DNA from: Streptomyces thinghirensis
Lineage (GTDB): Bacteria > Actinomycetota > Actinomycetia > Streptomycetales > Streptomycetaceae
Direction: 5' to 3'
Assembly: GCA_021502835.1 (NCBI GenBank)
Contig: JAKFGP010000058.1
Coordinates: forward strand, 124,001-188,000
Length of the DNA: 64,000 nt
Every line of letters begins with the position of its first letter. Within the stretch, counting starts at the first letter, position 1. The translations under genes were made by a program, and so were the position numbers. The notes under the pieces are model-generated. The model did no database searches. It was not told the DNA's origin and was given only the letters and a program-made list of their open reading frames with translations. Below are positions 3,935 to 7,521 of this stretch, piece after piece.

Positions 3935-4076
3935 CCAGGGCCAGTCGGCGTCCCGGGCGGCTTCGAGCTGCTGGGGACCATCCGGAACTGCCGCGTCCGA
4001 GGGCGCCGAAGGTGTGCCGGTTGCATATGCCGAGCGAGGCCGTGACCCGCCCGGTACCCGGCCAGGTTCCAGGTGC

Positions 4077-5504
4077 CTAGGCCGGCACGTGCTCCGGAAC
4101 CTGCTCGGTCGGGTCGCCGTGCCGGTTGTAGGCGTACTGCTCGTCGGTGACGATCAGCACCCGGTCGTGCTTCCTGTAGTGCCGGCGGACCGCGTCGGTC
4201 GTGTCGGTCCCGCCCAGGTCACCCGAAGCGCTCAGGATCTTCGCGCCGACTCGCCCGCGGTACCGCGCGGTTGCTCGACGTACCGAACTCCGCAGGTCCG
4301 CGTCCGCCGCCCGCAGCGCAGGCGCCGTGCCGAGATCGCCGCCGCGTCGGCCCGGTTGAGCTCCGAGCGGTCCGACATCCGCGAGTAGAACATGGGCCAG
4401 GCGGTCCACGAGGACCAGGGTCCGGCCGGGCAGCGCGGGCACGTTGGCCGGCGGGTGCCCGAGCAGCCTGCTCCAGCGAGGTACGACCAGCGCAGCGACG
4501 GCGCGTGCCGGTACGCGGCGAGGTAGCGGAAGGGGAACTGCCGCGAGCGCGCCACCTGGTCCGGGTCGCTGATCCGGGCCGCCACCCGCGCCGCGACCTC
4601 GTCGGAGACACCGGCCTCGTCGAAGTTGCGCAGGTTTCGGACGAGCGCCATGGCACCCATGGACGGAATCACGGCCTCCCAGGCCGCCCTGTCCATCGGC
4701 CCCTGGAGCCAGCCGGCCAGCATCTCCCACGTGATGCCCGCCGCCGCGAGCCGCTCGGCACCGTCGGGCGCCGTGACGACCGCTCGCCGCCGGTCGACGG
4801 GCGGCGCCATCAGCTCGCGGTGCGCGGTCGGGACGCGGTTCGAGGCCAGGCGGCACCGCGGTGTCCAGGTTGTGCCGGCGGTCGAGGGCGTACTCGAACA
4901 GCTCGCCCTGCCACGGCTTCTCCGGGTCCGGCGCCGCGTGCACCAGGTTGAGGATGTCGCCGAAGCGGTAGCCCTTGGACGCGGTGTCGTACTTAGCAGC
5001 GACTTGCCGTGGTAGAGCCGCCGTACGGCGTCGGCGATCCCCGCTTGACCGGCTTGGGCACGGCACGCCCGTACGCCGCCGTCCAGTACGCGAGCAGCTC
5101 ACCGGGCTCGTCGGGCCGCTGGAGGACGGAGGCGACGACCTGCCGGTTGGCCGGACCGTCGGTGGCACCCGCGTCGAGGCGTGCCTTGACGTACTCGGCG
5201 GCGCCGACGATCGAGCGGTGCGCAGGTTGCCCTCGCCGCGCAGCCGGCCGAGCAGGCCGGCCGTCCACGACGGATCGGTGAGGGCGAGTTCACGCACGAG
5301 CGTGGCGAAGCGGTCGTCGCGGGCGGCGCCGGGCTCGTAGAAGGTCTGCTGGGACACGAAGTTGGCGACCGACAGCAGGAAGAGCTCGGAGCGTGCGTCA
5401 CGCTCACGGCCCCGGCCGCCCTCGTAGGTGCGCAGCACGCGGCCCGTCGATGTCACGCGCGAGGTGGGCTGTGCCTTCGCCGTCTTGGTGTTGAATCGCG
5501 CCAT
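4077..5504 (-). CDS. TROVE-domain protein (Ro60/Rsr-like RNA-binding protein)
   Basis: The ring-forming TROVE domain starts after a short basic tail (MARFNTKTAKAQPTSRV). It reads SELFLLSVANFVSQQTFYEPGAARDDRFATLVRELA, EYVKARLDAGATDGPANRQVVA, KYDTASKGYRFGDILNLVH and TWEMLAGWLQGPMDRAAWEAVIPSMGAMALVRNLRNFDE. A vWA-like domain follows, with the strand TLVLVDR, a reconstructed G-P-M MIDAS-like loop near 4395, and the end DRVLIVTDEQYAYNRHGDPTEQVPEHVPA. Ro proteins bind Y RNAs and misfolded RNAs in RNA quality control. Length is about 470-480 residues. There are at least six indels, including two in the MIDAS loop, so its metal site cannot be judged. The ATG at 5504 follows GGAATTC spacing, and the three Y-RNA-like structures lie immediately upstream. 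Confidence 0.9.
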   Translation of the reverse strand: MARFNTKTAKAQPTSRVTSTGRVLRTYEGGRGRERDARSELFLLSVANFVSQQTFYEPGAARDDRFATLVRELALTDPSWTAGLLGRLRGEGNLRTARSSAPPSTSRHASTRVPPTVRPTGRSSPPSSSGPTSPVSCSRTGRRRTGVPCPSRSSGDRRRRTAALPRQVAAKYDTASKGYRFGDILNLVHAAPDPEKPWQGELFEYALDRRHNLDTAVPPGLEPRPDRAPRADGAARRPAASGRHGARRCRAARGGGHHVGDAGRLAPGADGQGGLGGRDSVHGCHGARPKPAQLRRGRCLRRGRGAGGGPDQRPGPGGALAAVPLPLPRRVPARAVAALVVPRWSRLLGHPPANVPALPGRTLVLVDRLAHVLLADVGPLGAQPGRRGGDLGTAPALRAADADLRSSVRRATARYRGRVGAKILSASGDLGGTDTTDAVRRHYRKHDRVLIVTDEQYAYNRHGDPTEQVPEHVPA

Positions 5505-5553
5505 GGTGAATTCCCCCCGAATTCCTTTCGGTGGGAGGGGCGCGGCAGAAGGA

Positions 5554-5694
5554 GGGTGCCCGAGGTCGGAATCGGCGACGGGAACATCCGGATGCTCTGC
5601 CATTTGAGCTACACCGACCCGTAGTCGGTGACGGGATTCGAACCCGCAGCCATCCGGTCGAAGGAAGTATCCGCTGCCTGCGCACCGGGCACCC
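5554..5694 (-). ncRNA. Y-RNA-like RNA 2 with permuted tRNA-like module
   Basis: The 141-nt structure is closed by a perfect 9-bp stem, GGGTGCCCG with CGGGCACCC (5686-5694 with 5554-5562). Inside are the conserved GTGCGC (5680-5685) and the helix GGCAGCGG/CCGTCGCC with one A-C mismatch. The tip is a circularly permuted tRNA: CCGGA/TCCGG in the anticodon-stem position (5653-5657 with 5588-5592), T-arm GCGGGTTCGAATCCCGT (5631-5647), acceptor-like stem CACCGA/TCGGTG (5625-5630 with 5612-5617) capped by a 7-nt loop, and D-arm 5594-5609. This is the known layout of bacterial YrlA RNAs. It ends 50 nt before the TROVE start codon. Confidence 0.82.
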
Positions 5695-5707
5695 ACCATC
5701 TGCTGCG

Positions 5708-5780
5708 CCTCCCGAGATCAAGTCGGCCGCGGCGTCGGATTCGATCACAACGAAGTAGCCGCGGCCCGCGCACCGGGAGG
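5708..5780 (-). ncRNA. Short Y-RNA-like RNA without tRNA-like module
   Basis: This 73-nt member lies between the two longer ones. The outer stem CCTCCCG/CGGGAGG (5774-5780 with 5708-5714) is followed by the shared block GTGCGC (5768-5773). A perfect 9-bp stem GGCCGCGGC/GCCGCGGCC (5758-5766 with 5725-5733) comes next, and the shared 3' segment GACTTGATCT lies at 5715-5724. The 24-nt loop begins with TACTTCG, as in the two neighbours, and contains GATCGAATCC, which resembles a T-loop but has no arms. It keeps the likely Ro-binding part and lacks the tRNA-like part. Confidence 0.65.
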
Positions 5781-5797
5781 TGCGTGAAGTGCAAGGT

Positions 5798-5933
5798 GTC
5801 CAGAGTTCAGGTCGGCGGAACCGACAAGGTGCTCTAACCCCTGAGCTACACCGGCGCGTTGTGCCGGTGACGGAACTCGAACCCGTGGCCGCCCCATTAT
5901 GAGTGGAAGTAGGTCCTGCCTTCGCACCTGGAC
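5798..5933 (-). ncRNA. Y-RNA-like RNA 1 with permuted tRNA-like module
   Basis: The 136-nt structure is closed by GTCCAG/CTGGAC (5928-5933 with 5798-5803). The conserved GTGCGAAGGCAG follows at 5916-5927, and the matching 3' segment GACCTGAACT lies at 5804-5813. The helix GGCAGGACC/GGTTCCGCC has an A-C mismatch at the same position as in RNA 2. The tRNA-like tip is permuted: T-arm ACGGGTTCGAGTTCCGT (5870-5886), a perfect 7-bp acceptor-like stem CACCGGC/GCCGGTG (5863-5869 with 5849-5855) closed by a 7-nt loop, then D-arm GCTCAGGGGTTAGAGC (5831-5846). There is no CCA end and no anticodon loop. The anticodon-side helix is weaker than in RNA 2. Confidence 0.8.
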
Positions 5934-5979
5934 GTTCATCACTCTAAGAGGGCGGCCGTCGCTCAGGCGAGCGAATTAA

Positions 5980-7444
5980 TCACCGGCGCTTCTGCCGCTT
6001 CCACGGCCCGGTGATGGCGAGCATGATGCCGGGGTCCTGGATATTGGCGTAGAGGGTCTTCCCGTCGGGCGAGAAGGTGACGCCGGTGAACTCGCTGTAC
6101 TCCGGCTCCTCTTCGGAACCGACGTTCAGGTCGTTGCGGGCGATGGGGTACGTGCGTCCGCTGTCGGTGGCGCCGAACAGGTGCTGGACGCCGTCGCCGT
6201 CCTCGGCGATGACGAGGCCGCCGTACGGGGAGACGGTGATGTTGTCGGGGCCGTCGAAGGCGCCGTCCGCCGACGGGTCGGGGTTGACACCGAGGAGGAC
6301 CTTGAGGGTGAGGGTGCGGCGCTTGGGGTCGTAGAACCAGACCTGGCCGTCGTGCGGCCGGCCGGGGCTCTCGTCACGGGCGAAGGAGGAGACGATGTAG
6401 GCGCCGCCGTCGGCCCACCACATGCCCTCCAGCTTGCGGGCGCGGGTGACCCGGCCGGCGCTGAACTGCTTGCGCACCGAGGTGCTCTTCGCGTCGCGGT
6501 CGGGGACGTCGATCCAGTCGACGCCGTAGACGGTGCCGGTCCTCGTCGCGCGGGAGAGGTCGTCGACGAACTTGCCGCCGGAGTCGAAGCACTTGAACGC
6601 CTGGAGGACCCCGGCGTCGTCGGCGAGGGTGCGCAGCCTGTTGCGGCCGTAGCCGGAAGCCCTCCGGCGGGGTCCAGCGGTAGAAGAGGCCGTTGGGGCC
6701 GGAGGCGTCCTCGGTGAGGTAGAGGTGGCCGCGCCTGGGGTCGACGACGACGGCCTCGTGGGCGTAGCGGCCGAGCGCCTTGATCGGCTTGGGGTCGCGG
6801 TTGGCGCGGCGGTCCTCGGGGTCGACCTCGAAGACGTAGCCGTGGTCCTTGGTCATCCCCCTCCTCGCCGGCCTTGTCCTCGGTCTCCTCGCAGGTCAGC
6901 CAGGTGCCCCACGGGGTGCTGCGCCCGCGCAGTTGGTGGCGGTGCCGGCGATGCCGACCCACTCGGCGACGTGGCCGCCAGCGGCGGACCTCGACGACCG
7001 TGCAGCCGCCGGCCGCGGCGGGGTCGTAGGACGAGGCCCTCGGTGAGCGGGACGGGGTGCGGCCAGTCGTCGCGGTGGCCGCCGAGTTCGTGGTTGTTGA
7101 CGAGGAGGGTGGTGCCGCGCGGGCCGTCGAAGGCGGCGGTGCCGTCGTGGTTGGACGGGGTGTACTCACCCGACTCCAGCTTGGTCCGGCCGCAGTAGGT
7201 GATGATCTCGTACCGGAACCCGGCGGGCAGGGCGAGGATGCCGTCGGGGTCGGGGATCAGCGGCTCGTACCACCCGTGGTCGTGTCCGTGTCCGTGGCCT
7301 CTGTCTGTGCTCCTCCCCCGTGCTCGGTGTCCGTGGAAGCGAGGGCGTTCGGGGCGGTGGCGAGGGCGCCGACGCTGCCCGCCAGCACGACCCGGCGCCG
7401 GTGAGCGCGGAGCGACTGGCGAAGTCCCTGCGGGTGAGCGACAT
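5980..7444 (-). CDS. phoX: PhoX-family alkaline phosphatase, Tat-secreted
   Basis: The N-terminus MSLTRRDFASRSALTGAG plus a hydrophobic stretch and ALAST is a twin-arginine signal. The body is PhoX/DUF839: DHGWYEPLIPDPDGILALPAGFRYEII, TLLVNNHELGGHRDDWPHPVP, TPWGTWLTCEETEDKAG, GRYAHEAVVVDPRRGHLYLTEDASGPNGLFYRW, GMWWADGGAYIVSSFARDES, FDGPDNITVSPYGGLVIAEDGDG and EFTGVTFSPDGKTLYANIQDPG. PhoX enzymes are extracellular Ca/Fe phosphomonoesterases that release phosphate from organic esters. Length is about 470-485 residues. Indels cluster at 6545, 6655, 6855 and 6930-7050. A PHO-box candidate lies about 80 nt upstream. It probably belongs to the PhoP regulon. Confidence 0.9.
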
Positions 7445-7521
7445 GGTGACTCCTGTGACGGTGGACGTGCCGGACGTGCCGTGGAGGGTGGCGGACCTCG
7501 GTCCGGCGACACGGTTCCGCC

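Follow-up and report, generated by a model that had tools for sequence, protein, structure and literature searches.

Bacterial Y RNAs that work with a Ro60-type protein have been described in Salmonella and Deinococcus. The structure of Salmonella YrlA is available as PDB 6CU1 (cited in PMC8394870), and the available text of that article states that YrlA mimics three arms of tRNA (D, T and acceptor) and carries the tRNA-type modifications dihydrouridine and pseudouridine. Competition of YrlA for an anticodon nuclease is presented in the accessible parts of PMC7790460 and PMC8394870 as an unproven idea. The same portions describe a Y RNA of Deinococcus that tethers Rsr to PNPase, and YrlA has already been reported in phages, according to the accessible part of PMC7765460.

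The locus described here lies in a 64-kb stretch of Streptomyces thinghirensis DNA (64,000 nucleotides, called the window), and consists of three small RNA genes (R1, R2 and R3) on the minus strand, arranged head to tail directly 5' of a TROVE/Ro60-like gene. Its features are as follows.

5941-5946, minus strand: TAGAGT, a promoter -10-like box (TANNNT) that ends 7 nt upstream of R1
5798-5933, minus strand: R1, 136 nt, a long Y RNA that contains a permuted tRNA module as well as a hairpin resembling an anticodon arm
5892-5908, minus strand: the R1 hairpin, TTCCA-CTCATAA-TGGGG
5887-5891, minus strand: variable-loop-like segment of R1, 5 nt, before the T arm
5870-5886, minus strand: T arm of R1, ACGGG-TTCGAGT-TCCGT
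5849-5869, minus strand: acceptor-like stem of R1, 7 bp, CACCGGC (3' strand first), loop ACAACGC, GCCGGTG (5' strand)
5831-5846, minus strand: D arm of R1, GCTC-AGGGGTTA-GAGC
5708-5780, minus strand: R2, 73 nt, a short Y RNA with the shared Ro-type stem (predicted) and TACTTC, without a tRNA module
5554-5694, minus strand: R3, 141 nt, a long Y RNA of YrlA layout with an AGCTC-type D arm, matched by RF02553
5588-5657, minus strand: permuted tRNA module of R3, with a closing helix (CCGGA/TCCGG) where a tRNA has its anticodon stem
3935-5504, minus strand: TROVE (Ro60-like) gene, split over several frames in the assembly and intact in the nearest genome

The first-pass annotation had proposed three tandem Y-RNA-like genes before a TROVE gene, and every feature that it named was found. 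The spacers of 17 and 13 nt between the RNAs are as it gave them, and the distance from the end of R3 to the start codon (ATG at 5504) is 49 nt rather than 50. The shared blocks were also as described, and all three outer stems are perfectly paired (GTCCAG/CTGGAC, CCTCCCG/CGGGAGG and GGGTGCCCG/CGGGCACCC). When both strands of the 64 kb were searched, the motif pair GTGCGNNGGC...TACTTC occurred three times, always within R1-R3. Two hallmarks of Y RNAs are present: the 5' and 3' ends pair into a stem with a conserved internal motif, and the genes are encoded beside a Ro60/TROVE gene. The annotation overlooked the permuted tRNA modules of R1 and R3 and the fact that no two of the three RNAs share an architecture.

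The TROVE assignment was examined in the protein. PF05731 matched three intact relatives at 50.3-51.1 bits, over the curated cut-off of 23, and the vWA family PF13519 was found in the TROVE protein only below its cut-off. The predicted structure of the TROVE protein from the nearest genome, G001 (pLDDT 79.9), has a vWA-like domain beside its helical part, and compares with Ro60 (1yvp, 2i91) and Deinococcus Rsr (2nvo) at a TM of about 0.7. In this predicted model the ring of helical repeats and the vWA domain are both present.

In the Rfam comparison that the annotation had recommended, run in e-value mode, RF02553 (YrlA) matched R3 over its full length (model 1-114, 42.2 bits, E 7.9e-8) and the inner part of R1 (model 24-84, 26.8 bits); R2 had no match, and none of the three reached the gathering score of 69 bits. 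At gathering thresholds, Rfam had no match in the window or in ten relatives. The interpretation of the array as Y RNAs beside a TROVE gene is nevertheless upheld by the full-model match of R3, by the predicted Ro60 fold and by the recurrence of the array 5' of TROVE genes.

In G001, an array of 98% identity precedes an intact TROVE frame, which, like the covariation described below, speaks against a chance arrangement. Of 61 relatives searched, 34 contain PF05731; they gave 43 matches, and 30 of these were retrieved as loci. Matches to models of R1 or R2 were found in 29 of these 30 TROVE loci, most of which had been used in building the models and therefore match as a matter of course (L001, L003, L005, L007, L021 and L026 are independent); the exception, L002, ends at a contig edge, has 53 nt of upstream sequence and carries none of the RNAs. 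All three RNAs were present in 12 loci (R3 weakly in L024, 30.4 bits), R1 and R2 in three, R2 and R3 in five (L014 is cut near R2) and R2 alone in eight, and L021 carries two long RNAs. By eye, one of the two R1-model matches 5' of TROVE in L021 has a Ser-like D arm.

Among named genomes, 442 protein relatives were found, and the best 80, all Streptomyces, were analysed, with R3 defined as the second R1-model match. R1, R2 and R3 occurred together in 39 of these 80 loci, R2 and R3 in 27, R1 and R3 in 10, and R1 and R2 in four; all 80 therefore carry at least two of the RNAs. These model searches replaced an earlier regular-expression count, which had given all three in 32/80. R1 was absent from 27 of the best 80 (in one of them, L110, the contig stops before the R1 position), R2 from 10 and R3 from four; R3, present in 76 of the best 80 of 442, is thus the most constant member. 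The three-member array, which had been thought unusual, is accordingly common in the genus, given the 39 of the best 80 named loci, and was seen in 12 of the 30 loci from relatives.

Beyond the genus, the R2 model matched 207 of 394 genomes of the family, in nine of 17 genera, although this model can also match R3. The corresponding R1-model prevalence (350/394) was discarded, because many genomes had only a match near E 2e-8, and in all five such genomes that were checked the match was a tandem tRNA-Asn gene pair. At the level of the class, an R1-model match with an E value of 1e-9 or lower was present in 23 of 246 genomes, of which 12 fall in the same genus. Three consecutive R1-model matches were also found in two genomes of another family (G579 and G491), and G253, G105, G033, G162 and G139 are among the genomes with two separate loci of high-scoring R1-model matches. 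In other genera (L120; L181-L185), the R2 position is often occupied by a longer element of about 100 nt, which in L120 appears by eye to contain a reverse-complement T arm. Some R1-model matches have D arms that look Glu-like by eye (TCGTCCAG...GGAC).

The stems of the array are maintained by covariation. In an alignment of 105 R1-model matches (104 distinct, of R1 and R3 type), which was fitted to the R1 model, standard pairs occupied 97.0% of cells, and two-sided changes were found in 578 cells, compared with a shuffled mean of 117 and with 33-61 for slid partners. All six helices contain pairs with such changes in the 104 distinct matches. The first 16 R1 copies of the genus, aligned without a model, had 15 two-sided cells against 2.3. 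The outer stem and the D arm are invariant among these 16 copies, and covariation of the outer stem therefore comes from paralogues and more distant relatives. In the 13 R3 copies given to RNAalifold, both partners had changed in 18 of 37 pairs, some of them in the anticodon-stem-position helix. When the RNAs of the window were folded thermodynamically, the z values were weak for R1 (-0.98) and R3 (-1.48) and reached -2.87 for R2, and single-sequence folding of R1 gave no cloverleaf.

The module of R1 and R3 runs in the order T arm, 3' acceptor strand, short loop, 5' acceptor strand, two bases and D arm. Both RNAs thus have the T arm, closed acceptor stem and D arm of YrlA, in permuted form, and R2 has no module. 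When R1 copies were rearranged to tRNA order, ARAGORN called a tRNA in 69/69, compared with 2/69 in native order and 0/345 for mononucleotide shuffles; the restored R1 of the window was called tRNA-Met(CAU). The isotypes of the module halves were compared using 47 distinct tRNAs from G008 loci and L121/L122 as reference. Both halves pointed to the same amino acid in two of 69 R1 modules (shuffled mean 0.8), 11 of 82 R3 modules (mean 4.8, maximum 10) and 10 of 89 other matches (mean 6.4). Over all 240 modules the count was 23, against a shuffled mean of 18.1 and a maximum of 30, and a single isotype for both halves was rejected as a general rule on this count. Clear cases are seven R3 modules with Arg(ACG) best for both halves, and Leu D halves also occur. 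No isotype is assigned to R1.

R3 modules fall into two types in the named loci: 44 of 76 have the AGCTC-type D arm, as in the window, and 32 are tRNA-Leu-like (GGCGGAA..GACGC). The variable region of the Leu-like copies is long in 24 and short in eight. Seventeen of the 21 distinct long variable regions form at least four Watson-Crick pairs, compared with 14% of shuffles, and the paired regions differ in sequence on both sides. The tRNA type of R3 thus varies within the genus, the Y stem staying similar; the window's own R3 has neither a Leu-like D arm nor a long variable region.

The hairpin of R1 lies between the Y stem and the variable-loop-like segment. From its sequence, we infer that it may be a true anticodon arm. 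The alternative is that it is an ordinary Y RNA hairpin with a 7-nt loop by chance, R1 being a three-armed YrlA with an insert. A stem of 5 bp with a 7-nt loop was found in 68 of 69 R1 copies of the genus, which contain 13 distinct 17-nt segments, so that the arm sequences differ and yet the geometry is kept; of the shuffled upstream segments, 4.8% reached 5 bp and 27.9% reached 4 bp, with real copies and shuffles alike scored at whichever of four offsets was best. At the corresponding place, 5 bp were found in six of 82 R3 copies and 32 of 89 other matches. The arm precedes the T arm by about one variable-loop length, as in a tRNA, and its loop obeys the anticodon-loop rule. In the distinct segments with at least four pairs (13 from R1 of the genus and 36 from a divergent group), the consensus is mostly C32, U33, free 34 and 35, U or C36, A37 and A38, with U also admitted at position 32. 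Several loops (CUCAUAA, CUGAUAA, CUCUUAA, CUGUCAA and UUUGGGA) are shared with real tRNAs of a relative. These points speak against a chance loop. The anticodon-arm reading is weakened by copies with C or G at position 37 and by one copy of the genus, L018, whose loop is shifted. In other families of the class, at least four of the five pairs form in nine of 13 fetched matches.

Several observations favour an ordinary hairpin. Its 5' strand starts inside the TACTTC motif, which is common to R2 and R3, and the bodies of R1 have no consistent isotype. When the arm alone was shuffled, ARAGORN still called a tRNA in 333/345, and its calls were therefore dropped as evidence for an anticodon arm. 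Fewer than four pairs form in 27 of 63 distinct segments of the divergent group, which mixes R1- and R3-type matches. Pairing was also examined in an alignment anchored on TACTTC or a near variant with pairing ignored, which covered 46 distinct segments from 77 of 78 best-scoring matches (one lacks the anchor), all found with a model that includes the hairpin, a source of bias. Pairs occupied 87.8% of cells, and 29 cells were two-sided, against 7.6 when shuffled and 3-9 when slid, which argues against the ordinary hairpin; these changes fall on only two of the five pairs, a number of pairs that shuffles equal, which argues for it. The ordinary hairpin is a possible explanation, although not one to be favoured.

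A promoter-like TANNNT box was found at the same offset, 7 nt 5' of R1, in 52 of 53 named R1 loci. As this is the one such box before R1, and the 17- and 13-nt spacers leave little room for others, co-expression is probable, and R1-R3 are likely to be made as a single transcript that is processed afterwards. With the array immediately preceding the gene in the same orientation, behind one promoter-like box, the arrangement would also suit a cis-acting leader of the TROVE mRNA, such as an attenuator or a T-box-like tRNA sensor. Every unit, however, closes on its own outer stem, members are singly absent in different species, and the best Rfam match is YrlA, with no leader family among the eight matches listed. 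A leader is therefore judged quite improbable.

Permuted tRNA genes are known from red algae, and R1 and R3 could be such genes, cut and rejoined by RNase P and ligase into working tRNAs. The tRNA calls of all restored R1 copies would agree with this, as would the CCA found near the start of the acceptor loop in 27 of 240 modules (ACCACGC, for example, in seven). The other 213 loops lack CCA near the start, however, the halves of a module seldom belong to the same amino acid, and the anticodon-like triplet varies among species of one genus (CAU, GAU, CUU, GCU and others). The bracketing Y stem is moreover unchanged in the first 16 R1 copies. A conserved anticodon, a CCA end and one isotype, as a working permuted tRNA would have, are thus lacking, and this explanation is hardly credible.

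The window's TROVE region is 97% identical to that of G001, with 36 gaps in 3.4 kb, and the G001 frame is intact. The neighbouring gene upstream (5980-7512), which we take to be PhoX/DUF839-like, appears by eye to be split over several frames as well. Given the gaps at this identity and the split upstream gene, the frame breaks in 3935-7512 are probably indel or sequencing errors of the draft. The broken TROVE frame might suggest that R1-R3 are relics in decay. This is scarcely to be believed, since the array is intact as well as conserved, G001 retains the frame, and the split upstream gene points to sequencing errors.

The locus is best explained, with good confidence, as a TROVE (Ro60-type) gene with three Y RNA-like genes, likely under one promoter, whose RNAs share a stem as their predicted contact with the Ro60 ring and present differing heads. 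R1, R2 and R3 would be expressed together from that promoter and then processed. The shared stem would hold the Ro60 ring, and the head of each RNA would gate the ring or recruit a partner such as PNPase or tRNA-binding enzymes; this mechanism, carried over from Deinococcus and Salmonella, is likely by analogy. The head of R1 would be a permuted tRNA module with an anticodon-like arm, that of R2 a plain hairpin, and that of R3 a permuted tRNA module with its closing helix in the place of the anticodon stem, of AGCTC type here and Leu-like in some species. With three different heads, one Ro60 ring would obtain three adaptors, and R1-R3 may serve as interchangeable handles or decoys for tRNA-handling enzymes.

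A further proposal, offered tentatively and rated rather unlikely, is that R1 carries as its head a complete tRNA with all four arms, circularly permuted with the break between positions 26 and 27, in which the first two anticodon bases drift freely. This head would act as a bait that delivers anticodon-arm enzymes (nucleases or modifiers) or their victims to Ro60, with R3 as an exchangeable second bait (class I, or Leu-like class II elsewhere), both derived from tandem tRNA genes and the same device being used by some actinophages. Should the R1 arm prove to be a genuine anticodon arm, R1 would be well placed to bind the enzymes by which such arms are read. The possible purposes of tRNA mimicry would be widened by one head that has an anticodon-like arm and another that has a long class II variable arm, and the mimicry would become testable, by asking which tRNA enzymes bind which head. 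Streptomyces provides up to three heads beside one Ro60 gene.

An origin of the modules is suggested by the false positives of the R1 model, which are tandem tRNA-Asn genes covered over model positions 26-104. Where two tRNA genes stand in tandem, the 3' half of the first and the 5' half of the second together reproduce the arrangement of the module, and this suggests that the R1 and R3 modules were derived from tandem tRNA genes.

A phage protein search matched 85 records, four of which were examined (BRock, Alone3, VanLee and Atuin). R1-model matches lay near the Ro-like gene in all four, the best scoring 102.4, 68.6, 56.1 and 43.6 bits. In VanLee, the Y RNA match (L239 1204-1275) coincides with the one annotated tRNA of the locus, tRNA-Arg(tct), and in Alone3 the match (L238 1274-1347) coincides with an annotated tRNA-Ser(gct); ARAGORN repeats both calls. 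A Y RNA match is thus labelled as a tRNA gene in two of the four phage records examined, which is a warning for annotation. Sub-threshold matches to manA RNA (RF01745) were also seen among tRNA genes of two Streptomyces phages (L237 3579-3742 and L238 3467-3699).

Compared with known systems, R3 resembles YrlA (RF02553) most fully, with T arm, closed acceptor stem, D arm and closing helix followed by the Y stem, and R1 shares the same three arms in the same order. Both differ from YrlA in their sub-gathering scores, R1 also in an additional anticodon-arm-like hairpin that the Rfam consensus structure lacks, and the R3 of some relatives in having a Leu-like D arm with a long variable arm. The Salmonella rsr-yrlBA-rtcBA operon, as described in the available text of PMC7790460, likewise pairs a Ro60 orthologue with multiple Y RNAs, of which one or more are tRNA-like, whereas the Streptomyces RNAs precede the protein gene and number three rather than two. 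The Rsr-Y RNA-PNPase complex of Deinococcus radiodurans (RYPER) also unites a TROVE/Ro60 protein with a Y RNA, and the G001 model matches its Rsr (2nvo); tethering of PNPase is described in other bacteria, and not for Streptomyces in the portions of the literature examined. The actinophages, in the four of 85 records, share a TROVE gene with nearby R1-model matches, but in three of the four (BRock, Alone3 and Atuin) this gene is surrounded by tRNA genes, unlike at the Streptomyces locus. The R1 and R3 variants were not described in the titles and abstract openings searched, a scope to which the claim of novelty is limited. The Ro60-Y RNA system itself is known, and its R1 and R3 variants in Streptomyces appear to be new relative to the portion of the literature examined.
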